Source: a virus
IMG/VR virus record: IMGVR_UViG_3300012209_000029
Coordinates: 1-21,856 of that record
DNA length: 21,856 bases
Reading direction: 5' to 3' (one strand)
Shown: positions 2,387 to 21,231 of the stretch, piece by piece
Position numbering within the stretch: the stretch's first letter is position 1
Layout: each line of letters opens with the position of its first letter
Notes under the pieces: generated by a model
The model's input: only the letters and a program-made list of their open reading frames with translations
Databases searched by the model: none
Told to the model about the DNA's origin: nothing
Made by a program: the position numbers and the translations under genes

Positions 2387-2785
2387 ATGGATAATGTACA
2401 ATTGGAAGCGGCGGTTCAGGAACTTAAAGCCGAGATCGTTTTGCTGCACTCCGAAATTCATTTACTTGAACGTCAGCAGAGTTCGAGACGCGGACCCGAA
2501 GGCGCCCGTGGCCCACAAGGTGAACCTGGTATTTCAAATATTCCAGGACCCGCAGGACCTGTAGGATCAACTGGTCCTAAAGGCGACGCATCAACTGTAC
2601 CTGGACCTCAAGGTATTCAAGGTATTCGCGGATTGACCGGCCCCCAAGGCGAGCAGGGAGAAAAAGGTGATCTTGGAGAACAAGGTTTTCAGGGTAGACC
2701 TGGACTAGATGGTATAACCCCAGATATAGAAGAGATTGTTGAGAAGGTGGTTTTCGTAATGGGAGCCCGTCTACAGCGATCTTAA
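2387..2785 (+). CDS. collagen-like phage protein
   Basis: About 132 residues. Residues 1-31 form a likely coiled coil with heptad-spaced Leu/Ile/Val and Glu (QELKAEIVLLHSEI). Residues 36-109 are Gly-X-Y triplets such as GPQGEPG and GEKGDLGEQG, interrupted twice. A short helical tail follows (EEIVEKVVFVMGAR). Coiled coil plus collagen triple helix is a classic trimeric fibre or stalk design in tailed phages. I chose ATG 2387 because AAGGAT at 2375-2380 is well spaced; an in-frame GTG lies one codon upstream at 2384. It probably trimerises and carries or spaces neighbouring fibre subunits. Confidence 0.85.
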   Translation: MDNVQLEAAVQELKAEIVLLHSEIHLLERQQSSRRGPEGARGPQGEPGISNIPGPAGPVGSTGPKGDASTVPGPQGIQGIRGLTGPQGEQGEKGDLGEQGFQGRPGLDGITPDIEEIVEKVVFVMGARLQRS

Positions 2786-2795
2786 GGATTGATGT

Positions 2796-4523
2796 ATGGC
2801 TGGATCGAGAGTAAGCATTCCTTATATTTTTGGTGGCCTCTTCAATGTTGTGCCGCCTACGGGTAGTGATGGGGACCCAATACCGTTACAGGTTGATACT
2901 GCCGGTAATCTTAAGGTAACATTTACTGGTGGGAGCGCGAGTAATCCTGCAGCCTCTCCTACAGGCGCAGCCGTTCCCTCAAGTGCCAGTTATAATGGCG
3001 TAAGCATTGCCGGAATCCTGACCGGACAAACAGGATTCTCATTAACAAATGCGGTCCCAGCGGCTGTTGCAATCGTCGATGGCAGTGGAAACCAGATCAC
3101 AAGTTTTGGCGGTGGCACCCAGTACGCATCTGGAGCTACCGTAGCCACCCCAACCGGCACACAAGTTATTGCCTGGGACGGAACAAAAGTTTGGGGGGTC
3201 TCGGCTGCACATTTAACAAATGCGAATGCATTAGCGGTCGAGATAGTAGATGCCAATGGAAATCAGATTACTTCATTTGGCGGTGGAATACAGTTTGCGG
3301 ATTCTGCTGCTTCTGGTGCTACCCCTACCGGCACTCTCGCGATGGGTTGGGATAGTGTCAACTCTAAGATTCGGGCGTTCAAGGTAGACGCGAGCCAAAA
3401 TCTTTTGGTTAATGTATCGAATGCTTCGATAGCGGTCACCGGCACCTTTTTTCAAGCAACCCAGCCAGTGTCGGGTACTTTCTTTCAAGCCACTCAACCT
3501 GTCTCTATTGCGGCGACAGTGACCGTCGCAGGTTCGCAGACTCCGACTGACTCTTATGCGAATCCGACAGACGCTCAAGATATTTTTGCTCTTCTTGGCG
3601 GCTGGGATGCCACGAATTCAAAGTGGCAGCGTGTTCAGGTTGACGCCGCAACTGGTACATTGAAGGTTGATCCTGGCACTGTTGCAGTTACAGGAACGTT
3701 TTTCCAAGCAACACAGCCAGTCTCTATTGCAGCGGCTATTGATGTCTCTGACCGTGCAGCGAGATTACTTGGGGTTGTTTACGGCTCTCAGGCACAGCAA
3801 CTGAAGCAGACCGCAACTAATTTCAACCTACAAGTTGAGTTAGCAACTGGCGGCACGCTTTACGATGCTCGTCAAATTCGAGTCTTGACTTCTTCTGACG
3901 TAGTGGATGTCTCTGATCGTTCCGCAAGGCTGCTTGGGCACGTCACAGTTGACAACGCTTCTATTGCGGTTACAGGAACATTCTTCCAAGCTACTCAGCC
4001 TGTCTCTGGCACAGTAACGGCGAATCAGGGCACAGCGAATACGCTGGCAAACAAATGGCCTGTTCAAGTAACGGATGGCACGAATGCTATGCCGACCGGC
4101 GATGTAATCGCTCGGGCTCTGTTTCACGAGATCACGGATGGCACGAACGGTCCCGTAGCGGTCAAAGCTGCTAACATAGCAGCGGTCGCAGCGGACCCGG
4201 CACTCGTGGTTGCGATTTCGCCGAACAATCCAATTTCAATTGCATTCACCGACCCCGCCGAAGGCGTTGTAGGAACCGCAACTCAACCAGCTAGTGCAAT
4301 TCAGGTAGGTGGTTGGGACGGCATGAATTTTAGAGTTCCAGCTATTTATTCTGATTGGTTGAAAAACCAAACGGAAGTTCGGGTTTCAAAACTTGAGCAG
4401 ATGATTCAGGCTTTTGATCCGCTGATTCTCGGAGAACTTCAAGCAATTCGTTATGGTATCGGAAAGTTGATTGGCGAGATGTTAGTTCCCGGTTATAAAG
4501 CTGACGGCATGTTAGCCGCATAA
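2796..4523 (+). CDS. 575-aa repeat-containing virion/fibre-type protein
   Basis: The protein opens with a hydrophobic segment and an IPLQVDTAGNLKV element seen in several phage structural proteins. It then contains several internal repeats: ITSFGGG-Q-A twice near residues 100-170, ATPTGT---WD twice, VSDR-ARLLG twice, and four copies of a GTFFQATQPVS motif, three of them with a leading AVT. The C-terminus (about 510-575) is more helical and charged (VRVSKLEQMIQAFDPL), suggesting an attachment end. FFQATQPVS-like repeats are common in annotated phage virion proteins, but their function is not settled. A tail or head fibre role is inferred from repeats and position. Confidence 0.8.
   Translation: MAGSRVSIPYIFGGLFNVVPPTGSDGDPIPLQVDTAGNLKVTFTGGSASNPAASPTGAAVPSSASYNGVSIAGILTGQTGFSLTNAVPAAVAIVDGSGNQITSFGGGTQYASGATVATPTGTQVIAWDGTKVWGVSAAHLTNANALAVEIVDANGNQITSFGGGIQFADSAASGATPTGTLAMGWDSVNSKIRAFKVDASQNLLVNVSNASIAVTGTFFQATQPVSGTFFQATQPVSIAATVTVAGSQTPTDSYANPTDAQDIFALLGGWDATNSKWQRVQVDAATGTLKVDPGTVAVTGTFFQATQPVSIAAAIDVSDRAARLLGVVYGSQAQQLKQTATNFNLQVELATGGTLYDARQIRVLTSSDVVDVSDRSARLLGHVTVDNASIAVTGTFFQATQPVSGTVTANQGTANTLANKWPVQVTDGTNAMPTGDVIARALFHEITDGTNGPVAVKAANIAAVAADPALVVAISPNNPISIAFTDPAEGVVGTATQPASAIQVGGWDGMNFRVPAIYSDWLKNQTEVRVSKLEQMIQAFDPLILGELQAIRYGIGKLIGEMLVPGYKADGMLAA
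3432..4007 (+). repeat. four coding copies of the TGTFFQATQPVS repeat
   Basis: Copies lie at 3432-3473, 3474-3506 (lacking the AVT lead), 3684-3725 and 3966-4007. The first two are directly adjacent and the others are separated by unique sequence containing VSDR-ARLLG repeats. The peptide is nearly identical in all copies while codons differ at many third positions. The repeat is therefore maintained at protein level rather than being a recent DNA duplication. Confidence 0.85.
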
Positions 4524-5651: not shown

Positions 5652-5725
5652 GCCCGATTAGTTCAAAGGTAGAATGCGAGCTTGGTAAGTTCGCGACCTG
5701 GGTCCGATACCCAGATTGGGCTCCA
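5652..5725 (+). tRNA. tRNA-Thr(GGT)
   Basis: Acceptor GCCCGAT pairs with ATTGGGC (one G-T). The anticodon stem CGAGC/GTTCG holds loop TTGGTAA, giving anticodon GGT. The T stem CTGGG/CCCAG has loop TCCGATA, with C at 55 in place of the usual T. Discriminator T and CCA are encoded. It is the first tRNA of the island and directly follows the small membrane protein gene. Confidence 0.9.
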
Positions 5726-5727
5726 AC

Positions 5728-5801
5728 GCCTTGTTGGTCTAGTGGTATGACGCCAATCTCGTACATTGGTTGCGGGTGTTCGATTCACCCACGAGGCTCC
5801 A
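5728..5801 (+). tRNA. tRNA-Thr(CGT)
   Basis: Acceptor GCCTTGT/ACGAGGC, anticodon stem CCAAT/ATTGG with loop CTCGTAC giving anticodon CGT, T arm GGGTG-TTCGATT-CACCC, discriminator T and encoded CCA. It is separated from the preceding tRNA-Thr by only two bases. It would read ACG. Confidence 0.93.
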
Positions 5802-5836
5802 GAAATTTAGTTTGAAATTAGAAGATTCTTTGAGGG

Positions 5837-5880
5837 AGTACAGGCCCCCGAAGGAGGAAAAGTGAAATCTTGCCTGTACT
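5837..5880 (+). promoter_or_regulatory. inverted repeat enclosing the RBS and start of the HNH gene
   Basis: AGTACAGGC (5837-5845) and GCCTGTACT (5872-5880) form a perfect 9-bp stem. The 26-base loop contains the strong Shine-Dalgarno AAGGAGG (5851-5857) and the GTG start (5862). The 3' arm lies within the first codons. In an mRNA this would place the initiation region in a hairpin loop and could restrict translation. Regulation is inferred; the inverted repeat is directly visible. Confidence 0.6.
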
Positions 5881-6284
5881 GCGCGGCATTATTGCGTCCG
5901 CGACAAAAGAGATATTGTAGTAGACAGTGTTTTGTTTCAGCCCGACAGATTCGATGGATTGAGTTATGGCTTGCTGGTAAAGAATCTGGTGTTATTATAA
6001 ATAAAGGGGCTAATCGAACGTCCTCTCGAATTCGAAATTATCTTATTCGGACACGAGGAGAGAAATGCGAGCGGTGCGGTTGGGGAGAAGTTAATCCGCT
6101 TACGGGGCGTTCTCCAGTTGAGTTAGAACATATAGACGGTCATTGGGATAATAATCGAATTGAGAATTTGATTTTGTTATGCCCGAACTGTCATTCTCTA
6201 ACCCCAACCTATAGAAGTTTAAATGCCGGAAACGGCAGACGAATTCGCAGGATTGGCTCAGCGGCGACAGCAGCAGTTTTGTAA
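5862..6284 (+). CDS. HNH endonuclease (putative homing endonuclease) in the tRNA island
   Basis: 140 residues from GTG 5862 behind AAGGAGG. An N-terminal zinc-finger-like pair (C4-x2-C7 and C19-x3-C23, with CSRQCF) precedes a basic helix-turn-helix-like region. The HNH domain follows: C69-x2-C72 and C107-x2-C110 as structural zinc ligands, catalytic H90 in ELEHIDG, N98 and N102 in DNNRIENL, and H111 after CPNC. This architecture is common for free-standing phage HNH homing endonucleases, which nick or cut DNA at related sites and spread by repair. The last 13 codons and the TAA lie inside the following tRNA gene, the stop falling in its anticodon loop. That fits insertion between tRNA genes. 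Confidence 0.9.
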   Translation: MKSCLYCAALLRPRQKRYCSRQCFVSARQIRWIELWLAGKESGVIINKGANRTSSRIRNYLIRTRGEKCERCGWGEVNPLTGRSPVELEHIDGHWDNNRIENLILLCPNCHSLTPTYRSLNAGNGRRIRRIGSAATAAVL

Positions 6285-6330
6285 ACTGCCGGGAAAACCC
6301 ACGGAAGTTCGAGTCTTCCATCCTGCTCCA
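6247..6330 (+). tRNA. tRNA with TGT anticodon (Thr) and a class II-like variable arm
   Basis: Acceptor GCAGGAT/ATCCTGC is perfect, the D stem is GCT/AGC, and the anticodon stem GCAGT/ACTGC has loop TTTGTAA giving TGT. The variable region is 13 bases (CGGGAAAACCCAC, able to form GGG/CCC), followed by T arm GGAAG-TTCGAGT-CTTCC, discriminator T and CCA. Bacterial tRNA-Thr has a short variable loop, so the long arm is anomalous. The T73 matches the other two Thr tRNAs here. It overlaps the HNH gene by 38 bases. Confidence 0.85.
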
Positions 6331-6340
6331 GAAATTCTAT

Positions 6341-6416
6341 GGTGGCTATGGTGTAATGGAAGCACTGTTGCCTGTGACGCAATCGGAGAGGGTTCGATTT
6401 CCCTCTAGCCACCCCA
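6341..6416 (+). tRNA. tRNA-His(GTG)
   Basis: An extra 5' G pairs opposite C73, the hallmark of tRNA-His. Acceptor GTGGCTA/TAGCCAC, D stem GTG/CAC, anticodon stem GTTGC/GCAAT with loop CTGTGAC giving GTG, T arm GAGGG-TTCGATT-TCCCTC-like and encoded CCA. The two ends closely match enterobacterial tRNA-His. Confidence 0.93.
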
Positions 6417-6455
6417 AGCTGGTCTTGTCCCGCAAGGATCGGGCGAGCACCTTTC

Positions 6456-6545
6456 GGAGAAGCGGCGAAGTTGGAGTGTCGCAGCAGTCTGTAAAACTGT
6501 CGGCCCTTGCGGTCATAGTCGGTTCGAATCTGACCTTCTCCACCA
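6456..6545 (+). tRNA. tRNA-Tyr(GTA)
   Basis: Acceptor GGAGAAG/CTTCTCC-type helix, D stem GCGA/TCGC, anticodon stem GCAGT/ACTGT with loop CTGTAAA giving GTA. A long variable arm of about 18 bases is present, as expected for bacterial tRNA-Tyr. T loop TCGAATC region, discriminator A and CCA are encoded. This is the normal class II tRNA to compare with the anomalous ones in the island. Confidence 0.93.
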
Positions 6546-6636
6546 GTTACATTAATCGCGCTGTCCGATTGTACTCTGGACCCGGAGTAATGGGCATGAT
6601 AGAGGAAGCTCCTAATAAGAGAAGCCGACAGCAATT
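6546..6636 (+). other. 91-bp spacer with terminal inverted repeat, no tRNA found
   Basis: The spacer between tRNA-Tyr and tRNA-Pro contains GCTGTC near its start and GACAGC at its end, which could close a stem. A TACTC/GAGTA hairpin lies inside. There is no T-loop (no GTTCRA-like segment) and no CCA, so I do not call a tRNA. It may be a decayed tRNA or a processing spacer. Confidence 0.35.
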
Positions 6637-6710
6637 CGGGATATGTTGTAGCGGTAGCATCTATGTTTTGGAAACATAGGGTCTTGGTTCAACTCCAGGT
6701 TTCCCGACCA
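6637..6710 (+). tRNA. tRNA-Pro(TGG)
   Basis: Acceptor CGGGATA/TTTCCCG with C1-G72 (typical of bacterial tRNA-Pro) and one T-T mismatch. Anticodon stem TATGT/ACATA has loop TTTGGAA giving TGG. T arm CTTGG-TTCAACT-CCAGG, A73 and CCA are encoded. The D stem is weak (TTGT/GCAT). Confidence 0.88.
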
Positions 6711-6714
6711 TTTT

Positions 6715-6788
6715 GGGCTGTTAGTTTAACGGCAGAATTCTAGTCCTGCACACTAGAGATGCGAGTTCGATTCTCGCACGGTCCACCA
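6715..6788 (+). tRNA. tRNA-Ala(TGC) with C33
   Basis: Acceptor GGGCTGT/ACGGTCC contains the G3-U70 wobble pair that defines alanine identity, with A73 and CCA. The anticodon stem CTAGT/ACTAG holds loop CCTGCAC, giving anticodon TGC. Position 33 is C rather than the nearly universal U. T arm GCGAG-TTCGATT-CTCGC is normal. Confidence 0.9.
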
Positions 6789-6790
6789 CT

Positions 6791-6864
6791 CGCTGTCTAG
6801 CACAATGGAAGTGCTCTCGTTTGAAGCACGAGCAATGTCAGTTCGATTCTGACGGCAGCGGCCA
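6791..6864 (+). tRNA. tRNA-Phe(GAA)
   Basis: Acceptor CGCTGTC/GGCAGCG, D stem GCAC/GTGC, anticodon stem CTCGT/ACGAG with loop TTGAAGC giving GAA, T arm GTCAG-TTCGATT-CTGAC and encoded CCA. Discriminator G and G37 are unusual for tRNA-Phe, where A is typical at both. Confidence 0.88.
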
Positions 6865-6976
6865 AAACAATAAGCAAGCACATGGGCGGCATTTAATCGC
6901 CACATTCACTCGGGGCGTCTCGGTTTGATTGAGCGGGGCCGTACGCTTTGTACGAGAAAATTAAAGGATAAAGATT
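6865..6976 (+). other. spacer/leader before the structural gene in the tRNA island
   Basis: This 112-bp stretch separates tRNA-Phe from the next coding gene. It includes a GGCG/CGCC pairing around 6886-6902, a GTAC-GCTTT-GTAC element near 6940 and the ribosome-binding site AAAGGATAAAG just before ATG 6977. No tRNA or ORF is seen. Confidence 0.4.
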
Positions 6977-7414
6977 ATGGCAGCAAACACACAGGTATCA
7001 CAAGATCAGTATCTTGATCAGGGAACTGATATTTTTCAATTGATAGGACAGGGCGGTAACGTTCTGTGGAGTATCAACAACAAGGGGGGCGTGCAGGTAG
7101 TCCCACAGCCTATCACGGCATCAGGCGCGATTAATCCCCGTCTTCCTGGTTTCTATGTAATCACGAAAGCTGGTGTTGCAGCCATGACTTTGGCTGCTCC
7201 TACAGCAACAACCGATGATGGTTTGGAAATCGAAGTTTCATCTACCACAGCCTTTGCGCATTCGTTTACCGCAACAGGTTTGCTGTTGACAGCATCGGCG
7301 GCTGTTAACTCAATCACTATGCCAGCGTTTGCTGGTGCTACTGTTTATTTCACTTCTTACCAGGGTAAGTGGGTAGTTGCAACTGGTGGTTTGGGAACAT
7401 ACGTAGCAGCGTAA
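6977..7414 (+). CDS. virion-type protein encoded within the tRNA island
   Basis: 145 residues from ATG 6977 with AAAGGATAAAG upstream. The N-terminal third is polar (QVSQDQYLDQGTDIFQLIGQ, then a VLWSINNKGGVQVVPQ-like strand pair). The remainder is Ala/Thr/Val/Gly-rich beta sequence (TATGLLLTASAAV). The GNVLWSINNKG segment resembles N-terminal connector strands of phage fibre or capsid-surface proteins. It resembles the structural genes outside the island in composition, although tRNA genes flank it on both sides. Unidentified family. Confidence 0.75.
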   Translation: MAANTQVSQDQYLDQGTDIFQLIGQGGNVLWSINNKGGVQVVPQPITASGAINPRLPGFYVITKAGVAAMTLAAPTATTDDGLEIEVSSTTAFAHSFTATGLLLTASAAVNSITMPAFAGATVYFTSYQGKWVVATGGLGTYVAA

Positions 7415-7598
7415 TTGGATTTACATCACTCTTCGCTGGCGAGACGCCAGCGCTCTGCAGGGCAAATCTGGCGAAGAGTTTATGACTGTTGCCACTATCG
7501 GGTCCGCAAGACTTTGGTAGTGTCTATCATAGGTTGGTCACCCGTTCACGCGAAGGCGTCCGGTTGCAAACGTTTGCGTGGATGAATACATTTTCTGA
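7415..7598 (+). other. structured 184-bp non-coding segment
   Basis: ACTCTTCGC (7428-7436) can pair with GCGAAGAGT (7471-7479). A competing hairpin CGCTGGCG-AGA-CGCCAGCG occupies 7434-7452 and shares three bases with the outer helix. A second hairpin, CACTATC/GGTAGTG with an inner GTC/GAC, spans 7493-7522. A GCAAACGTTTGC palindrome lies at about 7565-7576. No T-loop or CCA is present, so these are not tRNAs. The segment may be the 3' end of the 6977 mRNA, a processing element or a small RNA. Confidence 0.5.
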
Positions 7599-7673
7599 TG
7601 CGGGTTAGACTTCGAGGAAGTCTTCAGCCTCATAACCTGAACTAGCCAGATGCAACTTCTGGACCCGCAACCA
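7599..7673 (+). tRNA. tRNA with CAT anticodon (Met or Ile2), copy 1
   Basis: Acceptor TGCGGGT/ACCCGCA is perfect, with A73 and CCA. Anticodon stem TCAGC/CCTGA has a C-C mismatch at 31-39 and loop CTCATAA giving CAT. T stem CCAGA/TCTGG has an atypical loop TGCAACT with G at 55. T1-A72 pairing rules against the usual bacterial initiator, which has C1xA72. It could be elongator Met or, if modified to lysidine at C34, Ile reading AUA. Confidence 0.85.
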
Positions 7674-7674
7674 T

Positions 7675-7748
7675 CGCTGGGTCGCCAAGTGGGAAGGCGC
7701 AAGACTCATAACCTTGTATCGTGTGTTCGATTCACACTCCAGCGACCA
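7675..7748 (+). tRNA. tRNA with CAT anticodon (Met or Ile2), copy 2
   Basis: Acceptor CGCTGGG/TCCAGCG, D stem GCC/GGC, anticodon stem CAAGA/CCTTG with an A-C mismatch at 31-39, loop CTCATAA giving CAT, T arm GTGTG-TTCGATT-CACAC, A73 and CCA. C1-G72 is a normal pair, so initiator features are absent. It starts one base after the other CAT tRNA but differs throughout, so it is not a recent tandem copy. Confidence 0.87.
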
Positions 7749-7816
7749 CTCCCTAATGGGATGGTGAAAGCCGACCGTGACCAAACTAGGCTTGACGGAT
7801 ACGAGAGTGTAGCAAT

Positions 7817-7890
7817 GCGGGTATGGTATATGGGCTGTGCCCAGGTCCTCCAAACCTGTGAAGAGTGTTCGAGTCACTCTATCCGCTCCA
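7817..7890 (+). tRNA. tRNA-Gly(TCC) with C33
   Basis: Acceptor GCGGGTA/TATCCGC, anticodon stem CAGGT/ACCTG with loop CCTCCAA giving TCC, T arm GAGTG-TTCGAGT-CACTC, T73 (usual for bacterial tRNA-Gly) and CCA. The 5' third (GCGGGTATGGTATA) is close to enterobacterial tRNA-Gly(TCC), whose loop is CTTCCAA. Position 33 is C here. A 68-bp spacer without tRNA features precedes it. Confidence 0.9.
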
Positions 7891-7892
7891 AC

Positions 7893-7966
7893 GCGATTGT
7901 AGTTTAATGGCAGAACATGACGTTGCCAACGTTATAGTGGCGGTTCGATTCCGCTCAATCGCTCCA
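7893..7966 (+). tRNA. tRNA-Gly(GCC)
   Basis: Acceptor GCGATTG/CAATCGC, anticodon stem TGACG/CGTTA with loop TTGCCAA giving GCC, T arm GGCGG-TTCGATT-CCGCT type, T73 and CCA. Position 33 is the normal T, unlike the neighbouring Gly(TCC). Confidence 0.92.
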
Positions 7967-8030
7967 GATTTGAGAGACACAGTGCGTCAACGCTGAGGTC
8001 GCGGGTCCGAATCCCGCATCGCTGAATCCA
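7967..8030 (+). pseudogene. tRNA remnant with intact T arm
   Basis: A perfect T arm (GCGGG-TCCGAAT-CCCGC, about 8001-8017) is followed by ATCGCTGAATCCA, ending in CCA at 8028-8030. Only about 64 bases lie between the previous tRNA and this CCA. No 7-bp acceptor partner or canonical 7-base anticodon loop can be found upstream; CAGTG/CGCTG encloses a 6-base loop. This looks like a tRNA that lost part of its 5' half. A functional but highly reduced tRNA is less likely. Confidence 0.55.
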
Positions 8031-8120
8031 AAACCACTTTGACGAGTGTAGGGACCGGCGATTTCAGGAAGACCTAGTCTCAACGAGCCCGAAAGGGCGT
8101 GAAACCTACGTCAATGGTTT
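8031..8120 (+). ncRNA. predicted structured RNA (multibranch) inside the tRNA island
   Basis: AAACCA-CT-TTGACG at 8031-8044 pairs with CGTCAATGGTTT at 8109-8120, leaving only a CT bulge. TAGG/CCTA continues the helix inward. Inside are TTTCA/TGAAA, a small AGAC-CTA-GTCT hairpin and GCCC-GAAA-GGGC closed by a GNRA tetraloop. No T arm, anticodon arm or CCA is present, so it is not a tRNA. No known RNA family is recognised. Pairings were found by eye without energy calculation. Confidence 0.5.
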
Positions 8121-8143
8121 GACCGAGGGAGAGACCTCTTTAT

Positions 8144-8219
8144 TGGCATGTGGTCCAATCGGTAGGGCGCCTGACTGTTAATCAGGACGGTGTGGGTTCG
8201 AATCCCACTGTGCCAGCCA
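8144..8219 (+). tRNA. tRNA-Asn(GTT)
   Basis: Acceptor TGGCATG/TGTGCCA, anticodon stem CCTGA/TCAGG with loop CTGTTAA giving GTT, T arm GTGGG-TTCGAAT-CCCAC, G73 (typical for Asn) and CCA. Confidence 0.93.
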
Positions 8220-8221
8220 AT

Positions 8222-8296
8222 GTCTCTGTAGCTCAACGGATAGAGCACCTGTCTACGAAACAGGTAATGGGAGTTCAATTCTCCCCAGGGACTCCA
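8222..8296 (+). tRNA. tRNA-Arg(ACG)
   Basis: Acceptor GTCTCTG/CAGGGAC, D stem GCTC/GAGC, anticodon stem CCTGT/ACAGG with loop CTACGAA giving ACG, T loop TTCAATT, T73 and CCA. In bacteria A34 of this tRNA is deaminated to inosine by TadA, so use by the phage implies the host enzyme acts on it. Confidence 0.92.
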
Positions 8297-8299
8297 AAT

Positions 8300-8378
8300 G
8301 GTCTGTTGGAGGAGCTTGGCTATCCTCGCGTCCCTGTCACGGATGAGATCACGGGTTCAAATCCCGTACAGACCGCCA
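8300..8378 (+). tRNA. tRNA-Asp(GTC)
   Basis: Acceptor GGTCTGT/ACAGACC, anticodon stem CGTCC/GGATG with loop CTGTCAC giving GTC, T arm ACGGG-TTCAAAT-CCCGT, G73 (Asp determinant) and CCA. It is separated from tRNA-Arg by three bases. Confidence 0.92.
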
Positions 8379-8380
8379 AC

Positions 8381-8456
8381 GGCCCTATAGCTCAATGAAC
8401 AGAGTACTCCGTTTCTACCGGAAGGGTTCGGGGTTTAAGTCCCCGTAGGGCCTCCA
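8381..8456 (+). tRNA. tRNA-Arg(TCT)
   Basis: Acceptor GGCCCTA/TAGGGCC, D stem GCTC/GAGT, anticodon stem CTCCG/CGGAA with a 27-43 mismatch and loop TTTCTAC giving TCT. T arm CGGGG-TTTAAGT-CCCCG has T at 56 instead of C. T73 and CCA are encoded. It reads AGA/AGG codons. Confidence 0.9.
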
Positions 8457-8459
8457 TTT

Positions 8460-8534
8460 GGGCTTATCGTCTAACGCATAAGGCATCCGTCTTCGAAACG
8501 GAATATCGGGGTTGGATTCCCCGTAGGCCCTCCA
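8460..8534 (+). tRNA. tRNA-Arg(TCG)
   Basis: Acceptor GGGCTTA/TAGGCCC, anticodon stem TCCGT/ACGGA with loop CTTCGAA giving TCG, T stem CGGGG/CCCCG with loop TTGGATT. G at 56 replaces the conserved C, which may weaken the D-loop/T-loop contact. T73 and CCA are present. Confidence 0.9.
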
Positions 8535-8536
8535 GA

Positions 8537-8625
8537 ATTGGAACGAGATGGTTCTCCCAACCCTCTTATAAAGGGTCGCACTAGATCAGTGCTTGGCAAG
8601 AGTTCGATTCTCTTTTCCAATACCA
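8537..8625 (+). tRNA. tRNA with TAT anticodon (Ile) and a class II variable arm
   Basis: Acceptor ATTGGAA/TTCCAAT is perfect, with A73 and CCA. Anticodon stem ACCCT/AGGGT has loop CTTATAA giving TAT. The variable arm of about 20 bases contains a GCACT/AGTGC hairpin. T arm AAGAG-TTCGATT-CTCTT is normal. The D arm is short (GAGA-TGGT-TCTC). Isoleucine tRNAs are class I in bacteria, so the long arm points to a Leu- or Ser-type body with an Ile anticodon. A73 matches leucine identity, and no other Leu tRNA is seen in this window. Confidence 0.85.
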
Positions 8626-8629
8626 GTTT

Positions 8630-8705
8630 CGATCTATAGCTCAATGGCTAGAGTACCTGGCTCTTAACCAGCGGGATGAAGGTCCGAATCCTTCTAGATC
8701 GACCA
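8630..8705 (+). tRNA. tRNA-Lys(CTT)
   Basis: Acceptor CGATCTA/TAGATCG, D stem GCTC/GAGT, anticodon stem CCTGG/CCAGC with a C-C mismatch at 27-43, loop CTCTTAA giving CTT. T loop TCCGAAT has C at 55. A73 and CCA are encoded. Confidence 0.92.
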
Positions 8706-8708
8706 AAT

Positions 8709-8783
8709 GGCCTCATCGTCTAGCGGCAAGGATGCGTCGTTCTCAACGATGCGACGTGGGTTCGACTCCCACTGAGGCTACCA
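8709..8783 (+). tRNA. tRNA-Glu(CTC)
   Basis: Acceptor GGCCTCA/TGAGGCT with a terminal G1-U72 pair, TCGTCTAG-type D region as in bacterial tRNA-Glu, anticodon stem CGTCG/CGATG with loop TTCTCAA giving CTC, T arm GTGGG-TTCGACT-CCCAC, A73 and CCA. Confidence 0.92.
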
Positions 8784-8785
8784 AT

Positions 8786-8860
8786 GGCCTGATCTTCTAA
8801 CGATCAGGATACTTCCCTTTCAAGGAAGAGATGAGGGTTTGATTCCCTCTCGGGCCACCA
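8786..8860 (+). tRNA. tRNA-Glu(TTC)
   Basis: Acceptor GGCCTGA/TCGGGCC, anticodon stem CTTCC/GGAAG with loop CTTTCAA giving TTC, T arm GAGGG-TTTGATT-CCCTC with T at 56, A73 and CCA. It starts two bases after tRNA-Glu(CTC). Confidence 0.92.
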
Positions 8861-8862
8861 AG

Positions 8863-8937
8863 AGCCTGTTGGCAGAATGGCACATGCACTGGTCCTACAC
8901 ACCAGCCATAGGGGTTCGATTCCTCTACGGGCTACCA
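8863..8937 (+). tRNA. tRNA-Val(TAC) with C33
   Basis: Acceptor AGCCTGT/ACGGGCT, D stem GCA/TGC, anticodon stem CTGGT/ACCAG with loop CCTACAC giving TAC, T arm TAGGGG-TTCGATT type, A73 and CCA. Position 33 is C, and the loop differs from the Ala(TGC) loop only in the anticodon itself. Confidence 0.9.
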
Positions 8938-8940
8938 AAT

Positions 8941-9016
8941 GCCAGGAATGTCGAAGCGTCGAGACGGCAATCTGCAAAATTGCTCTTAGCGAGTTCGAGT
9001 CTCGCTCCTGGCTCCA
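8941..9016 (+). tRNA. tRNA-Cys(GCA)
   Basis: Acceptor GCCAGGA/TCCTGGC, D stem GTC/GAC, anticodon stem GCAAT/ATTGC with loop CTGCAAA giving GCA, T arm GCGAG-TTCGAGT-CTCGC, T73 (cysteine determinant) and CCA. Confidence 0.93.
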
Positions 9017-9039
9017 AGTATTAATGTTTATATTTATAT

Positions 9040-9115
9040 AGGTCGGTAAGATAGTGGCTATTCGGCGCGTCTCCAAAACGCTGCAACGTGAGTTCGAGTC
9101 TCACCCGCCCTGCCA
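9040..9115 (+). tRNA. tRNA-Trp(CCA)
   Basis: Acceptor AGGTCGG/CCGCCCT with one T-C mismatch at 4-69. Anticodon stem region CGCGT/ACGCT has loop CTCCAAA giving CCA, flanked by GTCTCCAAAAC as in bacterial tRNA-Trp. T arm GTGAG-TTCGAGT-CTCAC, G73 (Trp determinant) and encoded CCA. The D stem is A/T-rich and weak. Confidence 0.88.
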
Positions 9116-9229
9116 GAATACACAGCACGAGAGAGTCTCGCAGTTTATAGGCTCTCCCGGAGATTGAGAAACGAAGATGAAGTCATCAACCAAATGCTCT
9201 AGTCGTAGCAAATGCTACGAGAAAAGTTT
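9116..9229 (+). other. 114-bp spacer with two hairpins
   Basis: CGAGA-GAG-TCTCG at 9128-9140 and a perfect 7-bp hairpin TCGTAGC-AAAT-GCTACGA at 9203-9220 lie between tRNA-Trp and tRNA-Ser. There is no T-loop or CCA. The second hairpin is followed by GAAAAGTTT, too poor in T for a confident terminator. These may be processing signals. Confidence 0.4.
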
Positions 9230-9319
9230 GGAGGGGTGACGGAATCCGGTAACGTAGTGGCCCGCTAAGCCAACGTCGAGTTCACGCTCGTCAGGGTTCA
9301 AATCCCTGCCCCTCCGCCA
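9230..9319 (+). tRNA. tRNA-Ser(GCT) with C33
   Basis: Acceptor GGAGGGG/CCCCTCC, long variable arm with CGAG/CTCG pairing, G73 (Ser) and CCA. Anticodon arm TGGC/GCCA plus a mismatch holds loop CCGCTAA giving GCT. The corresponding enterobacterial loop is CTGCTAA, so position 33 is U-to-C. T arm AGGG-TTCAAAT-CCCT is normal. Confidence 0.9.
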
Positions 9320-9322
9320 ACT

Positions 9323-9414
9323 GGAGAGCAGCGCTGAATGGTCGGCCACGGTCCCGAAAACCGAGACACGTCACTTTGTGGCGTGACAGAGTTCGATTCT
9401 CTGGCTCTCCTCCA
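9323..9414 (+). tRNA. tRNA-Ser(CGA) with C33
   Basis: Acceptor GGAGAGC/GCTCTCC, long variable arm with GTCAC/GTGGC-type pairing, anticodon stem CGGT/ACCG plus an A-A mismatch, loop CCCGAAA giving CGA. T arm CAGAG-TTCGATT-CTCTG is normal; T73 and CCA are encoded. Position 33 is C where bacterial tRNA-Ser(CGA) has T. Confidence 0.9.
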
Positions 9415-9416
9415 AT

Positions 9417-9492
9417 GGGTCTGTAACTCAATGGATAGAGCACCCGCCTTTTAAGCGGAGGAATGTCAGTTCGACTCTGACCAGACCCACCA
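9417..9492 (+). tRNA. tRNA-Lys(TTT)
   Basis: Acceptor GGGTCTG/CAGACCC, D arm ACTC/GAGC, anticodon stem CCCGC/GCGGA with a 27-43 mismatch, loop CTTTTAA giving TTT, T arm GTCAG-TTCGACT-CTGAC, A73 and CCA. Confidence 0.93.
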
Positions 9493-9582
9493 TCTTGAAT
9501 TTCGCCGTGACCATGGATCGGCGATAGCGCCCGCAGTGAGGAAGTCGCACTGTCGCCCGAGGCGTAAAAAATATCGGCCTAT
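9493..9582 (+). other. 90-bp spacer with hairpins, no tRNA found
   Basis: CGCCG (9503-9507) pairs with CGGCG (9519-9523), and GCGATAG (9521-9527) with CTGTCGC (9550-9556); the two stems share three bases. An A-run follows at 9566-9571. There is no T-loop or CCA. Possibly a decayed tRNA or processing element. Confidence 0.35.
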
Positions 9583-9657
9583 TGGCTTGTCGTCTAATCG
9601 GTAGGACAGCAGTCTTTGAAACTGTGAATACACGTTCGAGTCGTGTCGAGCCAGCCA
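9583..9657 (+). tRNA. tRNA-Gln(TTG)
   Basis: Acceptor TGGCTTG/CGAGCCA, D stem GTC/GAC, anticodon stem GCAGT/ACTGT with loop CTTTGAA giving TTG, T arm ACACG-TTCGAGT-CGTGT, G73 (Gln determinant) and CCA. Confidence 0.93.
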
Positions 9658-9666
9658 TTACAATAT

Positions 9667-9741
9667 TGGCCGATAGTGCAATCGGTAGCACGGCGCTCTC
9701 TGAAAGCGCAAGTCTTGGTTCGAATCCAAGTCAGCCAGCCA
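9667..9741 (+). tRNA. tRNA-Gln(CTG)
   Basis: Acceptor TGGCCGA/TCAGCCA with one C-A mismatch, D stem GTGC/GCAC, anticodon stem GCGCT/AGCGC with loop CTCTGAA giving CTG, T arm CTTGG-TTCGAAT-CCAAG, G73 and CCA. It is the last tRNA of the island. Confidence 0.92.
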
Positions 9742-12812: not shown

Positions 12813-13253
12813 ATGAGAACAAAAGAAGAGAAACTTGCCTACGATAAACGTTGGCAAAAAGAGCACCAACCTGAAGTTAATAAGTATCACAGAAACTACA
12901 GGAACGGCCACCCTGAGTATTGCGAAAAGCAAAATGATGCGCGAAAGCGCCGATCAGAACGTGATCATCAACGATACGAGGGAAATCCTCTTCGGTTTAT
13001 ATCTGCTACTCGGAAGCGAAAGTATGGAATAACTCAAGAGGAGTTTGAAGCTCGAATAGACGCACAGAAAGGTCTTTGTGCCATTTGTTTTAAGCCAATG
13101 GTCGTTCCTCATATAGACCATAATCACGCAACGGGTAAGAATCGAGATTTGTTGTGTAAGAATTGTAACACGGCATTAGGTTTGTTTTGTGAGAGCGTGG
13201 ATATCTTGAGTGGTGCTATAAAGTACCTCCAACGACACACTACTCAGGTTTGA
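12813..13253 (+). CDS. recombination endonuclease VII-like HNH endonuclease
   Basis: 146 residues. The N-terminal 75 are Lys/Arg/Glu-rich helices (TKEEKLAYDKRWQKEH) leading to KYGITQEEFEA, a signature before the endonuclease VII fold. The zinc-bound beta-beta-alpha motif follows: C89-x2-C92, then HIDHNHATGKNRDLLC with D102 and H103 matching the catalytic pair, and C115-x2-C118 with N119. T4 endonuclease VII resolves branched DNA, but many relatives scattered in phage genomes behave as homing-type nucleases. The isolated position behind two hairpins, among unrelated small genes, favours the selfish reading. Both roles remain possible. Confidence 0.88.
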   Translation: MRTKEEKLAYDKRWQKEHQPEVNKYHRNYRNGHPEYCEKQNDARKRRSERDHQRYEGNPLRFISATRKRKYGITQEEFEARIDAQKGLCAICFKPMVVPHIDHNHATGKNRDLLCKNCNTALGLFCESVDILSGAIKYLQRHTTQV

Positions 13254-16848: not shown

Positions 16849-19098
16849 ATGTCCATATCAGTCGAGGAAGCAGCGCGTCTAGGTTTTAAATTGACTGAGA
16901 CAGAAGCGAAAGTAATTGTTCGCGAGACGCTTGAGAACAACTTCCTGGATCGTATGAAGGCGTTGGATGCGGGTAACCAAGCCTTATCGCTTACTCCTGA
17001 AATACGTGGAAGCCAAGGAAAAGTATACGGACCTACAGATGAATGGGTCCAATTTGTTTTGGGGTTAAAGCGTAAGGAAGATGGTATCTATCCATGGCAC
17101 TTATCTGAGGCCGCTAATTGGTATCATCTTGGGCAAACTTTCGTTGGTCGTGAATGGCTTGGACCGGAATCTGAGGAAGAGTCTGAGGATGAAGAGGAAG
17201 AGATAGTCCGTCGCGCCAGCAAAAAGAAAAGTAAGAAAAAATCTGATACCTATAACCATATACCCGTTCCTTATAGAGTTCAGATTCTAGGTCAAGAGTC
17301 TTCATTTGTGGAGTGGTTGAGCTTACGTGATAAGGCCCGCAAGGATTTGTTTTGGCTTGGGGTTTCGGTTCTTAAGAAGAATTGGGTAGCGGAGACACAT
17401 CAGCAAGTTTGCGATCAGTTCGTGCAGAAGAACTTTGATGGTGTTTATCACTCAGGTTACAATCTGACCGATGTTCAGAATGCTTTTGATTCCCAGAAGC
17501 GATTCGATGGTGAGGGTCGCCCAACAAAAGAAATGATCTTGTTGGACTCCCGAGGTTTTTTCAAATCGACTATCGATGGTGTCGATTGCATTCAGTGGAT
17601 GTTGAATGCTCCTGATATTCGAATCATGATCGTTACGGCTACGAAAGAGTTGGCCCGTGGCTTCATGAAGGAAATCAAGAACTACTTGTTTTATCAGCCG
17701 CATAATGAGGAAAGTACTTCTCTGGATTTGCATCTGTTGTTTCCAGATTACATCCTCTCGAAGGCGCCGTCTGAGAATAATACGCCGTTGCTGTTACGCG
17801 TGCGTAAGCACTGGCAAAAAGATAAGAGTGTTGCGATCTCTTCGATGGAGTCAGGTCAGGCGGGCGCTCACTGTGACGTGCTGAAGCGTGATGATTGCAC
17901 TAACGAACAAAATTGTACTCCCGGCACACCAAAGCCGACGCTGGCGTTATTGAATTCAAAGATTAATACTACCGGCAACATTCCGATGCCGTGGGGTTTT
18001 ATTGATAACATCGGAACTCGTTATCGAGTTGATGATTGGTTTGGACATAGAATTGCGTTGTTGGCGGTGAGCCCGGCGAAGTATTTTTGTCGAGCTTGCT
18101 GGGTTGTAAAAGACCAGTTTAAGATCGTTCCTTTGAAACAGATTACGGAAGAGATGGTGATTTTAAACTTCCCTAAGCTTTCAAAAACAGCTTTTCAGGA
18201 TTTGCGAAAGAAGTTGGCGGAAGACGAGATGGTTTTTCGTTGCCAACAGCTTAACGAACCCGCTATGGAGGCTGAGGAAGACAAGTTTAAGATTGCATTT
18301 ATTTTGGATGAGCTTCGTCGGGCTACGATCCATCCCGCAGCAGCCGCCAAAGAAGGCAATATTTATATTGCCTGGGATACTGCTTACTCGAAGAATAAGC
18401 AGAGTGATTATTCGGCTGGCGCCGCTTCTCGAAGATTTAAACGTGCTGATGGTCGTTGGGGTCTAGAAATACTTGAAATTCGTCATGGTAAGTGGACATC
18501 TTCCGAATTAGCACAACAGATTGCCCAGATGGACAAGGATTGGAATCCAGTCCAGACCATCATTGAAAAAACAGTTAATGCAGAGCTTTTAGAGCTTCGA
18601 CTCCAGGAATGGTATAAGCGTTTAGATTTCTTGCCACGAATTTGGTGGAGAGAGCCAAACCCAGAACCGGATGCGAAGAGAAACAGAATCAAGCAGCTTG
18701 AGATTTTGTTGGTCGCGGATTTGTTGAAGTTTGTTTTTGGGGTAGCTAAAAAGCAACTTGATTGGATCGATCCAACATTTGACCAATTGACTGCATATAC
18801 AGGTGAGAGAAAGAATCGCGGACGTAAGGACGATATCCCGGACGCGATGTCGATGTTGTGGTATTTCTTGCCCCTACACATTCCGACTCCACAAGAGATT
18901 GAGATGACGCAGAAGCGCGTGGAGTTGCTATGGCAAGCGGCGGCTCGACAGTCTTGGCAAAAATCGGTATTTGGTGGATGGGGAACACAGAAGCCACAAC
19001 AGGCTTCGTTGATACCTAACATGTCATCAGTGGACTCGCGCCGGAGTCCTATGACCGATGCAGGGCGACGAATAATGGGTCCTGGATTTCGGGTGTGA
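16849..19098 (+). CDS. terminase large subunit
   Basis: 749 residues, long for the family. Residues 1-230 are an N-terminal extension with an acidic tract (105-118, SEEESEDEEEE) followed by a Lys-rich tract (124-131). The ATPase follows: Walker A-like DSRGFFKST (233-241), the IMIVTATKELA segment (259-269) and Walker B-like DVLKRDDC (343-350). The RuvC-like nuclease shows D510 in IYIAWDTAYS, E573 in IIEKT and D665 in DDIPDAM. This enzyme cuts concatemeric DNA and pumps it through the portal into the prohead. It is directly followed by the portal gene, the usual order. A distinct small terminase is not evident. Confidence 0.93.
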   Translation: MSISVEEAARLGFKLTETEAKVIVRETLENNFLDRMKALDAGNQALSLTPEIRGSQGKVYGPTDEWVQFVLGLKRKEDGIYPWHLSEAANWYHLGQTFVGREWLGPESEEESEDEEEEIVRRASKKKSKKKSDTYNHIPVPYRVQILGQESSFVEWLSLRDKARKDLFWLGVSVLKKNWVAETHQQVCDQFVQKNFDGVYHSGYNLTDVQNAFDSQKRFDGEGRPTKEMILLDSRGFFKSTIDGVDCIQWMLNAPDIRIMIVTATKELARGFMKEIKNYLFYQPHNEESTSLDLHLLFPDYILSKAPSENNTPLLLRVRKHWQKDKSVAISSMESGQAGAHCDVLKRDDCTNEQNCTPGTPKPTLALLNSKINTTGNIPMPWGFIDNIGTRYRVDDWFGHRIALLAVSPAKYFCRACWVVKDQFKIVPLKQITEEMVILNFPKLSKTAFQDLRKKLAEDEMVFRCQQLNEPAMEAEEDKFKIAFILDELRRATIHPAAAAKEGNIYIAWDTAYSKNKQSDYSAGAASRRFKRADGRWGLEILEIRHGKWTSSELAQQIAQMDKDWNPVQTIIEKTVNAELLELRLQEWYKRLDFLPRIWWREPNPEPDAKRNRIKQLEILLVADLLKFVFGVAKKQLDWIDPTFDQLTAYTGERKNRGRKDDIPDAMSMLWYFLPLHIPTPQEIEMTQKRVELLWQAAARQSWQKSVFGGWGTQKPQQASLIPNMSSVDSRRSPMTDAGRRIMGPGFRV

Positions 19099-19104
19099 TA
19101 AAGA

Positions 19105-21231
19105 ATGGCTGAACTGGAAAAAGCAAGCAGCAGTGAACTTGATGCATCTTTGGCTGCGAAATTCATTGATCCCGCCTCCGAGATCACTGTCGATAGCCTG
19201 ATTACAGACTCTGAGACCGATACGATCATGTTCCAAGATCGCGAAGCGGTCATGCTTGTAATTAAGGACGCGGAACGTGCAGATCAGTGGTTAAACATAA
19301 ACCAGTGGCCCAGTGGTTGGACTCTTGCTGACACCATTTATCAGTCACCGGCTGCTAATTCGGCATTCGATGGTGGTCAGGTTGCGCAAGCTAACGTTCC
19401 AAAGTTTACGGTTTCGAATCATATCAGTTCAATTGTACCGAAAATTATGGGTGGTATCTTCTATGAGAAGCCACCGTTTGAACTTCGGCCACGTCCTGGA
19501 ACGGATAGGATTACTGTTGACGCCAAGAGATCATTATTTACAACTCAACTCGATCTAATGCATTTTGAGGAAGAGACAGAACGTGCTGTTGAGCAGCAGG
19601 CTCTTCTTGGAACTTGTATTATGAAGTGGGGTTATACCGAATACAAGCGCAAACAAAAGCGTTATGTTCGTAAGGGCGAGCAACATCAATATATTCCTGC
19701 TACCGGCCAAGTCGAGATGGTCGATACGCCGGAGTCAGATTCTTTTGAAGTAGTAATCGACAACATTGTGGAGTCACATCCCTGGATTAAGTATTGTGAC
19801 ATTCGTACTGTTCTCGTGGACCCAGGAACTCGTGTTGGTGACATTCGTAAAGCAAAGTGGGTTGTATATCGAGATTATGCGACCTACGATGACTTGGATA
19901 ATTTGCGTGGGGTTCAAGGCTATAAGATTCCTTCAGAGGCCGAGCTTAAGAATTTGTTTTTGAGTAAGCCTACATCAGGTCCAGATAACATCACCCTTAC
20001 AATTCCTGAAGGAATGTATGGATATTTGCAGCATGCTTTGCCTCGTAGTTACAAGACGAGTGCGAATCCGCTTGATACACCTCTTGAGATTCTAGAGCGT
20101 TGGGATAATGATCGTGTTATCGTGATTTTGTCGTTTAGTGGACACAATCTTTTAATTCGTAATGAAGTCAACCCTTACGGAAAGATTCCGTTCCTCTCCG
20201 CCAATTGGCGAAATATTCCTGATTGCTTCTATGGGCAGGGTCTTGGCATTTTGTTGGGACCGGATCAATTGGTTGAACAAGGTGTAACCAACCTTTCTTT
20301 GGATTTGTTGGCTTTTTGTCTACAACCTCCTGCCGTTAGAAAGAAGGGTTTCAATACTCTTCAGCAGAATCAGAGATGGTCTCTCGGCGGCATTATTGAC
20401 GTTGATGAAGACGTAGATAAGGCTTTCAGATTTTTAGAAATGCCTCGACCACCTTCAGAAGCCTTTGCGGCTATTGCCCAAAGTCAAGCCTCGGCTGCAG
20501 CATCCTCGGGTGCTAATGAGAATTTTGTTCAAGGAGCCGCATCTTCTGGGTCTAGGTCTACTGGTGCTCGCTCGGGGACCGGCGCCGCCGCCGTTATCCA
20601 AGCTAATGCCTCCCGTCTAGATAGTCCTATGGGTCGGTTCATTCGCCAGGTCTTTGAGCCGTGGCTTCAGATTATGGATGAGTTGAACAATGATTTATTG
20701 CCAACATCTGTGTTGAAGCGAGTTCTTGGTGAAGAATTAGGGCCACAGTTTAAGATCGATCATATTCAGTTCCGAGAAGCAGAGCTTGAGTTTGAGGTAT
20801 TAGCTGGGGCTCATCTTGGAGCTAAGAAAGAGATGACGCAATTTTTGCCAATCATGGTGCAGTTGATGACGGCGCCAGCTTTTAATACAGGTCTCGCTCA
20901 AGCCTACATGAAGTGGGATTCCGTAGCTATTTTCAAGGCATTTGCGGAAGCCGCAGGCTGGAAGTACAGTCAAAATTTCTTAGTCAAGATGACTGATGAA
21001 GAGAAGCAGCAGGCTAAGCAGAATCAGCCAGCCGCTATCCAAGCACGGCAGGCTCAGGCACAGCAAGCACAGTCGCAGCAGAAATTCCAGCAGGATCAAC
21101 AGAAAGAAGCCCAGGAACAACTGGGTAAGGCCCAAAACGAAGTAATGCGTGGTGCTGTTGAACACGCCCTTCAATCGGAAGAGACCGGAGAACCAGCTAA
21201 CACTGGATTCGGTAGCACAACCGAACTCTAA
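19105..21231 (+). CDS. portal protein
   Basis: 708 residues, six bases after the terminase stop. The N-terminal third contains the typical portal wing/clip region (SSIVPKIMGGIFYEKPPFEL, then a TERAVEQQALLGTCIMKWGY segment). The central part includes PYGKIPFLSANWRN and GPDQLVEQGVTNLSLDL. The C-terminus is a long Gln/Ala-rich helix of about 40 residues (QARQAQAQQAQSQQ) resembling the barrel helices of P22-type portals. Twelve copies form the ring at one capsid vertex through which terminase packages DNA. Assignment rests on size, segment style and position after terminase. Confidence 0.88.
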   Translation: MAELEKASSSELDASLAAKFIDPASEITVDSLITDSETDTIMFQDREAVMLVIKDAERADQWLNINQWPSGWTLADTIYQSPAANSAFDGGQVAQANVPKFTVSNHISSIVPKIMGGIFYEKPPFELRPRPGTDRITVDAKRSLFTTQLDLMHFEEETERAVEQQALLGTCIMKWGYTEYKRKQKRYVRKGEQHQYIPATGQVEMVDTPESDSFEVVIDNIVESHPWIKYCDIRTVLVDPGTRVGDIRKAKWVVYRDYATYDDLDNLRGVQGYKIPSEAELKNLFLSKPTSGPDNITLTIPEGMYGYLQHALPRSYKTSANPLDTPLEILERWDNDRVIVILSFSGHNLLIRNEVNPYGKIPFLSANWRNIPDCFYGQGLGILLGPDQLVEQGVTNLSLDLLAFCLQPPAVRKKGFNTLQQNQRWSLGGIIDVDEDVDKAFRFLEMPRPPSEAFAAIAQSQASAAASSGANENFVQGAASSGSRSTGARSGTGAAAVIQANASRLDSPMGRFIRQVFEPWLQIMDELNNDLLPTSVLKRVLGEELGPQFKIDHIQFREAELEFEVLAGAHLGAKKEMTQFLPIMVQLMTAPAFNTGLAQAYMKWDSVAIFKAFAEAAGWKYSQNFLVKMTDEEKQQAKQNQPAAIQARQAQAQQAQSQQKFQQDQQKEAQEQLGKAQNEVMRGAVEHALQSEETGEPANTGFGSTTEL

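Follow-up and report, generated by a model that had tools for sequence, protein, structure and literature searches.

C33 in place of U33 is a recurring, rule-bound exception among the tRNAs of tRNA-rich phages

The window analysed here, the whole stretch of 21,856 nucleotides from the virus record IMGVR_UViG_3300012209_000029, a fragment of a soil phage, carries on its plus strand an array of 28 tRNA genes (5652..9741; called with ARAGORN and Rfam RF00005, with Cys-GCA recognized by eye), which is interrupted by an HNH endonuclease gene (PHROGs HNH match) and a small ORF. On the same strand lie the gene for the terminase large subunit (16849..19098; phrog_38, E 1e-32), which was used as the query for finding the phage family, and the gene for the portal protein (19105..21231), which is 35% identical to that of Tunturiibacter phage Tunturi_3, a likeness suggesting an Acidobacteriota host. 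A search for relatives of the protein encoded at 6977-7414 rendered none. The total of 28 tRNAs comprises 27 ARAGORN calls plus tRNA-Cys(GCA) (about 8942..9017, plus strand, T33), which ARAGORN missed in the window and whose counterpart is present in the relative L003 at 2114-2190. One of the ARAGORN calls, a 'Pyl-CTA' at 8759-8860, is an overlap artefact on tRNA-Glu(TTC) (8786..8860, plus strand, T33; RF00005 55.5 bits). The initial annotation had counted 29 tRNAs, 24 of them with T33; since there are 28 in all, 23 T33 tRNAs, and not 24, stand beside five with C33.

U33 is taught as near-universal, and all five of these tRNAs, encoded on the plus strand, depart from it: tRNA-Ala(TGC) (6715..6788; loop CCTGCAC, C33 at 6746; RF00005 57.1 bits), tRNA-Gly(TCC) (7817..7890; CCTCCAA, C33 at 7848; 41.9 bits), tRNA-Val(TAC) (8863..8937; CCTACAC, C33 at 8895; 49.0 bits), tRNA-Ser(GCT) (9230..9319; CCGCTAA, C33 at 9263; 49.3 bits) and tRNA-Ser(CGA) (9323..9414; CCCGAAA, C33 at 9354; tRNA-Sec model, 37.9 bits). 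ARAGORN placed these loops, all of 7 nt, where they had first been described, and covariance-model alignments agreed, setting C, not T, opposite the consensus U33 in Ala, Val, Ser-GCT and Ser-CGA. Gly-TCC was not recovered in a covariance rerun of a short stretch with fast filters, and therefore its C33 placement rests on ARAGORN and a 5-bp stem. The RF00005 gathering score of 29 was exceeded by Ala, Gly, Val and Ser-GCT. Ser-CGA was reported solely as tRNA-Sec, under the threshold of 47 of that family, any overlapping match to the tRNA model being masked by clan competition; its long variable arm is probably why the tRNA-Sec model won. In other respects the five are as sound as had been claimed, with CCA encoded in all of them and anticodon stems paired at 5/5 positions in Ala, Gly and Val and at 4/5 in both Ser tRNAs (ARAGORN), and a search of the array for second copies of these isotypes with T33 found none. 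The five are real elongator tRNAs that probably work.

Position 33 varies among the nine members of the phage family. Val-TAC has C33 in five of the nine, L003 included, and has gained or lost C33 at least three times on the terminase tree. Ser-CGA retains C33 in L003, whose tRNA is 98.9% identical, and has T33 in L633, while Ser-GCT has T33 in L003 (an 89% relative) and C33 again in the distant relative L632; both Ser-GCT and Ile-GAT show C33 twice, in separate lineages. T33 is found in Gly-TCC in all eight relatives, and in Ala-TGC in those relatives that possess this tRNA. The window has the highest count of C33 tRNAs (5 of 28), with 0-2 in the other members.

A first scan was selected for C33 and was left out of the rate estimates, for which a neutral survey was therefore used, consisting of IMG/VR tRNA arrays chosen in three T-arm scans without regard to position 33. 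This set of 3,151 tRNAs contained 86 with C33 (2.7%), 3 with A33 and 5 with G33. The C33 rate was about 1.2% under 45% GC and about 15% over 60%, a clear trend (rho 0.45, p 9e-8), and C33 clustered within phages (pair statistic 168, versus a permutation mean of 47 and a maximum of 100 in 5,000). For pooling, tRNAs matching the search pattern, C33 and T33 alike, were first dropped from the C33-selected loci. The pooled rate was 3.3% in arrays of at least 10 tRNAs, giving a probability of 0.002 for five or more C33 among 28, and the neutral sample at 45-50% GC (5/240 with C33) gave about 3e-4 for the window by hand calculation, both values being descriptive, as the window was chosen for its C33 trait. 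With five C33 tRNAs at 48% GC, the window has unusually many for its base composition. GC alone is indeed a poor predictor, since Tunturi 5, a cultured model for the likely host phylum with an Acidobacteriota host and 58% GC, had no C33 among 38 scored tRNAs (42 predicted, 150 kb covered). C33 is also found, in one to three tRNAs each, in the finished genomes of the cultured phages phiCbK, CcrColossus, KVP40 and mycobacteriophage Erdmann, and is therefore accessible to experiment; T5 and one Streptomyces phage had none. A search of open-access papers found nothing on C33 in phage tRNAs.

The C33 tRNAs are not a random draw from their arrays. Compared with expectations from shuffling C33 labels inside each array, they had a purine at position 35 in 142 cases against 99.8 expected, a value that none of 4,000 shuffles reached. 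The excess persisted without Val and Ile (86 against 65.5) and in the neutral set only (62 against 42.4); isotypes being few, the effect depends on rather few independent classes. Within arrays C33 was enriched in Val (z 9.3), Ile (z 4.7), Pro and Glu, and in family-box tRNAs (z 4.8), and was avoided in Arg, Asp, Trp, Met, Gln and Phe, with none in 35 Arg-ACG (4.6 expected), 57 Asp (6.4 expected) or 38 Trp, and 3 in 85 Gln (10.8 expected). The purine-35 rule is incomplete, in that Phe, Met and Leu-TAA, with A35, rarely have C33, and Glu, with U35, is enriched. C33 was linked neither to the GC strength of the anticodon (z 0.27) nor to the presence of a T in it, as a U-specific nuclease would want. 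The survey shows that C33 is a recurring, rule-bound exception of tRNA-rich phages, and neither decay nor an artefact.

Chromosomes were compared by narrow sequence-pattern searches. A test in Pseudomonadota (GTCC/GTCT) was dropped, as its T33 matches were nearly all Trp or Cys, which seldom have C33 even in phages and therefore make a poor baseline. It was replaced by Ile-GAT in 100 Actinomycetota, which rendered no real C33 against about 97 T33, and by Val-TAC in 99 Acidobacteriota genomes, with no C33 against 35 T33. Three apparent C33 matches to Ile-GAT in Actinomycetota were the variable arm of a T33 tRNA-Leu.

The reading that we favour, to which we give a probability of roughly 0.6, is a recurrent, tolerated swap of U33 for C33 in redundant phage tRNAs, bounded by the chemistry of the U-turn and by enzymes that require U33. 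Tolerance had been one of three explanations initially offered, and of the three it is the best fit. Phage tRNAs, which we take to be extras beside the host's own set, would be under weaker selection at position 33 than chromosomal ones because they duplicate that set, and GC-biased mutation would push T to C. The loop would still have to form a U-turn, in which N3-H of U33 bonds phosphate 36 (PMC8080527); loss of this bond may be least damaging with a purine at 35, whose N7 could keep a bond to the 2'-OH of residue 33. C33 would be avoided in tRNAs whose charging or modifying enzymes presumably depend on U33, such as TadA on Arg-ACG, or GlnRS; in yeast, U33C in tRNA-Gln leads to a pseudohyphal phenotype interpreted as poor decoding or charging (PMC3664417). 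The expected outcome is a position that alternates between T33 and C33, Val and Ile being the hot spots, in tRNAs that would be charged and used. A counterpoint to tolerance is that some phages, though few, carry five to seven C33 tRNAs.

Editing of C to U, another of the initial explanations, would give U33 in the mature tRNA and so square the many C33 genes with the universal U33 rule. It would also cancel the cost of C33, so that no purine-35 or isotype bias would be expected, whereas both the purine-35 preference and a dearth of C33 in Arg-ACG, Asp, Trp and Gln are observed; no such editing at position 33 of bacterial or phage tRNAs was found in the open literature searched, and we consider it extremely improbable. 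It is very unlikely that the C33 genes are decaying or non-functional copies, or artefacts of annotation or assembly, and random decay had rightly been doubted from the outset. ARAGORN scores them about 4 points lower, a deficit to which the missing T33 may itself contribute, but they average 1.06 stem mismatches against 1.30 in their T33 neighbours, a pyrimidine is retained at 33 (86 C against 8 A or G in the neutral set), and C33 occurs in finished genomes of cultured phages and is conserved in L003 in Val and Ser-CGA.

The isotypes attacked by the well-known anticodon nucleases are those for Lys, Tyr, His, Asn, Asp, Arg, Trp, Ser, Leu, Cys, Gln and Met. The third initial explanation was escape from anticodon nucleases, of the host or of a rival, that depend on U33. 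C33 would block recognition or cutting by such a nuclease, so that phage translation would go on while host tRNAs are destroyed. Clustering by phage is what a host-linked pressure would give, Tunturi_3 has genes for RNA ligases and an RNA 2'-phosphotransferase, resistance to VapC, PrrC and colicins is predicted for phage tRNAs with changes in the anticodon loop (PMC10264068), and cells struck by PARIS are rescued by T5 tRNAs that are altered close to where cleavage occurs (PMC12409363). We nevertheless regard such escape as unlikely, and as a general driver it is not supported: target isotypes, on this incomplete list, had C33 in 66 cases against 119.6 expected, escape does not predict that C33 tracks purine 35 and GC, and Tunturi 5, with its Acidobacteriota host, lacks C33. 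Room is left for particular tRNAs. Unlikely, too, is a wider adaptive reading, in which C33 would be a functional alternative to U33, gained and lost adaptively, that hides chosen tRNAs from a U33-reading host factor while purine 35 preserves the U-turn; that factor would be a novel nuclease or modification enzyme, perhaps with Val, Ile, Pro or Glu tRNAs as targets. Decidedly unlikely is that C33 tunes decoding, reshaping or slightly weakening anticodon-codon pairing in chosen tRNAs and adjusting wobble, accuracy or frameshifting to the needs of phage genes. The strong preference for Val, Ile and family-box tRNAs within arrays and the repeated gain of C33 in the same isotypes would agree with it, but this preference is equally accounted for by where C33 harms least, GC-rich, strongly pairing anticodons are unlinked to C33, and the codons that the window's five C33 tRNAs read are ordinary in their usage (for example, GTA makes up 19% of Val codons, GCA 26% of Ala codons and TCG 18% of Ser codons).

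The phage tRNAs described by van den Berg et al. 2023 (PMC10264068) likewise lie in arrays and have loop bases differing from those of the host, and T5, KVP40, phiCbK and the C1 mycobacteriophages have the same kind of array as the window. A mycobacteriophage of C1, a cluster studied in that work, has C33 in two Val tRNAs; position 33 is unmentioned in its main text, and the isotype pattern of C33 runs opposite to the classic nuclease targets. In the evasion of PARIS and retrons (PMC12409363, PMC11555353), phage tRNA variants replace host tRNAs depleted by the defence; PARIS AriB cleaves the anticodon stem, and dependence on base 33 is unreported in the passages covered. No PARIS- or retron-type defence system was identified here. 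The vertebrate cytosolic initiator is likewise a working tRNA with C for U33 beside a purine-35 anticodon (PMC8080527, which records C33 for the mammalian one), whereas the five tRNAs of the window are of the elongator type, with anticodons TGC, TCC, TAC, GCT and CGA instead of the CAU of an initiator.

Annotation tools that reward T33 may score genuine phage tRNAs too low. Moreover, with so many natural elongator tRNAs that have C33, some of them in cultured phages, the role of U33 could be tested directly, by asking which isotypes can do without it, whether a purine at 35 restores the U-turn, and whether it is to dodge host enzymes that phage tRNAs differ from those of the host.

The tRNA array of the 21,856-base IMG/VR fragment extends from position 5652 to 9741 and is followed by small genes, the terminase and the portal. 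After correction of the ARAGORN calls it comprises 28 tRNAs, not the five with C at position 33 (C33, next to the anticodon) plus 24 others of the initial annotation: the Pyl-CTA call is really Glu-TTC, and Cys-GCA was overlooked by ARAGORN. C33 in place of the near-universal T33 was borne out in Ala-TGC, Gly-TCC, Val-TAC, Ser-GCT and Ser-CGA, ARAGORN and covariance-model alignments being concordant where both exist (for Gly-TCC the basis is ARAGORN and a 5-bp stem), and all five encode CCA, as had been stated. HNH and endonuclease VII genes (5862-6284 and 12813-13253) lie in or near the array, and a tRNA-like remnant with a good T-arm, perhaps a decayed tRNA, follows Gly-GCC (7967-8030).

Close relatives include two fragments with a terminase identical to that of the window, which end short of the array. 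Another relative, L003, has a terminase 89% identical and 20 tRNAs called by ARAGORN; between its tRNAs are extra ORFs (790-1110, 1390-1800 and 2735-3060) that resemble HNH-type homing endonucleases on inspection by eye. A broader terminase search rendered 40 loci, several with full arrays. The window portal matches one cultured phage, Tunturi_3 (35% identity over 82%), which infects the acidobacterium Tunturiibacter, so that the host is likely to belong to the Acidobacteriota. The genes of Tunturi_3 (record 49001-97608) include two annotated as RNA ligases, one for an RNA 2'-phosphotransferase and one for a protein with an RF-1 domain, a set that hints at RNA repair; one of its predicted tRNAs has an 8-base anticodon loop (gaaa).

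Among nine family phages, window included, the five tRNAs differ in their history at position 33. Val-TAC has C33 in five (window, L003, L631, L633 and L634) and T33 in four; Ser-CGA has C33 in the window and L003 and T33 in L633; Ser-GCT has C33 only in the window and L632, and Gly-TCC and Ala-TGC only in the window. Ile-GAT, for which there is no call in the window, has C33 in L630 and L634. On the terminase tree, Val-TAC switched at least three times and Ser-GCT and Ile-GAT twice each, since in each case a sister phage has T33. The window has the highest C33 count (5/28), the other family phages having 0-2.

A single tight pattern for C33 tRNAs has at least 120 matches in IMG/VR. When tandem tRNAs were sampled by T-arm patterns blind to position 33, the 3,151 distinct tRNAs among the matches listed included 86 with C33, 3 with A33 and 5 with G33; this survey is based on ARAGORN calls and IMG/VR fragments, its matches are not random draws, and collapsing identical tRNAs removed related phages only in part. 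In 130 arrays of at least 10 tRNAs, C33 was found in 76 of 2,276, clustered by phage (statistic 168, against a permutation mean of 47 and a maximum of 100 in 5,000) and increasing with GC (rho 0.45, p 9e-8), from 20/1,639 below 45% GC to 27/176 above 60%. The window, at 48% GC, is far over its own GC class (5/240). Five bacterial genome contigs also carry C33-rich arrays (8 of 12 tRNAs in one) and are likely to be phages or mobile elements that ended up in genome bins. Apparent amber-suppressor-type (CTA) tRNAs with C33 and the loop CCCTAAA appear in seven phage or genome contigs; ARAGORN artefacts may account for at least some of them.

With GC and phage controlled for by shuffling C33 labels only inside arrays, there was enrichment (observed vs expected) in Val (34 vs 8.8), Ile (22 vs 9.2), Glu (22 vs 11.7) and Pro-TGG (15 vs 7.5), and depletion in Arg (5 vs 16.9), Asp (0 vs 6.4) and Trp (0 vs 4.3), as well as in Met, Gln and Phe. 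A purine at position 35, the middle of the anticodon, was strongly favoured (142 vs 99.8) and C35 shunned (13 vs 42.1), with few isotype classes and statistics that are not tree-aware; the purine effect persists without Val and Ile, and in the neutral sample alone. Three of the window's five have purine 35 (Ala, Val and Ser-CGA), and the other two (Gly and Ser-GCT) combine C33 with C35, which is unusual with respect to the survey.

Cultured phages also carry C33: phiCbK and KVP40 in Ile-GAT, CcrColossus in Pro-CGG, Pro-GGG and Ile-GAT, and the C1 mycobacteriophage Erdmann in Val-CAC and Val-GAC. It was absent from the tRNAs checked in T5, JustBecause and PAU, and from the 38 scored in Tunturi 5. 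With narrow patterns, rather than a full census, chromosomal Ile-GAT in 100 Actinomycetota genomes gave about 97 copies with T33, spread over 87 genomes, and not one genuine C33 (three apparent matches were tRNA-Leu variable arms), and Val-TAC in 99 Acidobacteriota gave 35 T33 and 0 C33. A chromosome-type exception is tRNA-Leu(TAA) of Frankia, Parafrankia and Pseudofrankia, with C33 (GCTGT CCTAAAA ACAGC) in at least nine records; the Streptomyces tRNA that bears this anticodon is bldA, which regulates development. Five Bacteroidota records (Chitinophagaceae and Pedobacter) have Cys-type tRNAs with C33, in some of which the anticodon reads ACA rather than GCA.

That C33 tRNAs are decaying copies or artefacts is disfavoured, in agreement with the initial annotation, which held random decay to be a poor explanation: their stems are as sound as those of T33 tRNAs from their own arrays (1.06 against 1.30 unpaired positions), and conserved positions 54, 55, 56 and 58 are retained about equally. 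Moreover, C far exceeds A and G at position 33, which is therefore still selected as a pyrimidine, with the caveat that mutation itself also favours T-to-C transitions. Escape from anticodon nucleases, an idea published for phage tRNAs (PMC10264068) and supported for PARIS by experiments (PMC12409363), may account for single tRNAs such as Ser-CGA; however, it does not predict the GC or purine-35 trends, and the isotypes attacked by known nucleases, on an incomplete target list, are depleted in C33 (66 vs 119.6 expected). The isotype pattern speaks against C-to-U editing to U33 in the mature tRNA, since no isotype should pay a cost for a C33 that is edited.

The 2'-OH of residue 33 bonds N7 of purine 35, a contact that C33 can still make and that would account for the preference for purine 35. 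Within the U-turn, the N3-H of U33 also makes a bond to the phosphate of residue 36 (PMC8080527). C33 does not have this hydrogen. TadA, the enzyme that turns A34 of Arg-ACG into inosine, is thought to read U33. So is GlnRS (a point cited in PMC3664417). The scarcity of C33 in Arg-ACG (0/100) and in Gln (3/205) in the survey matches these two enzyme needs. In yeast, U33C in tRNA-Gln is viable, with a pseudohyphal phenotype (PMC3664417). Given the U-turn chemistry, the match with enzyme needs and the viable yeast mutant, C33 looks like a slightly costly yet workable state, which would be permitted in phage copies that are presumably redundant and under weaker selection, and toward which GC bias would push.
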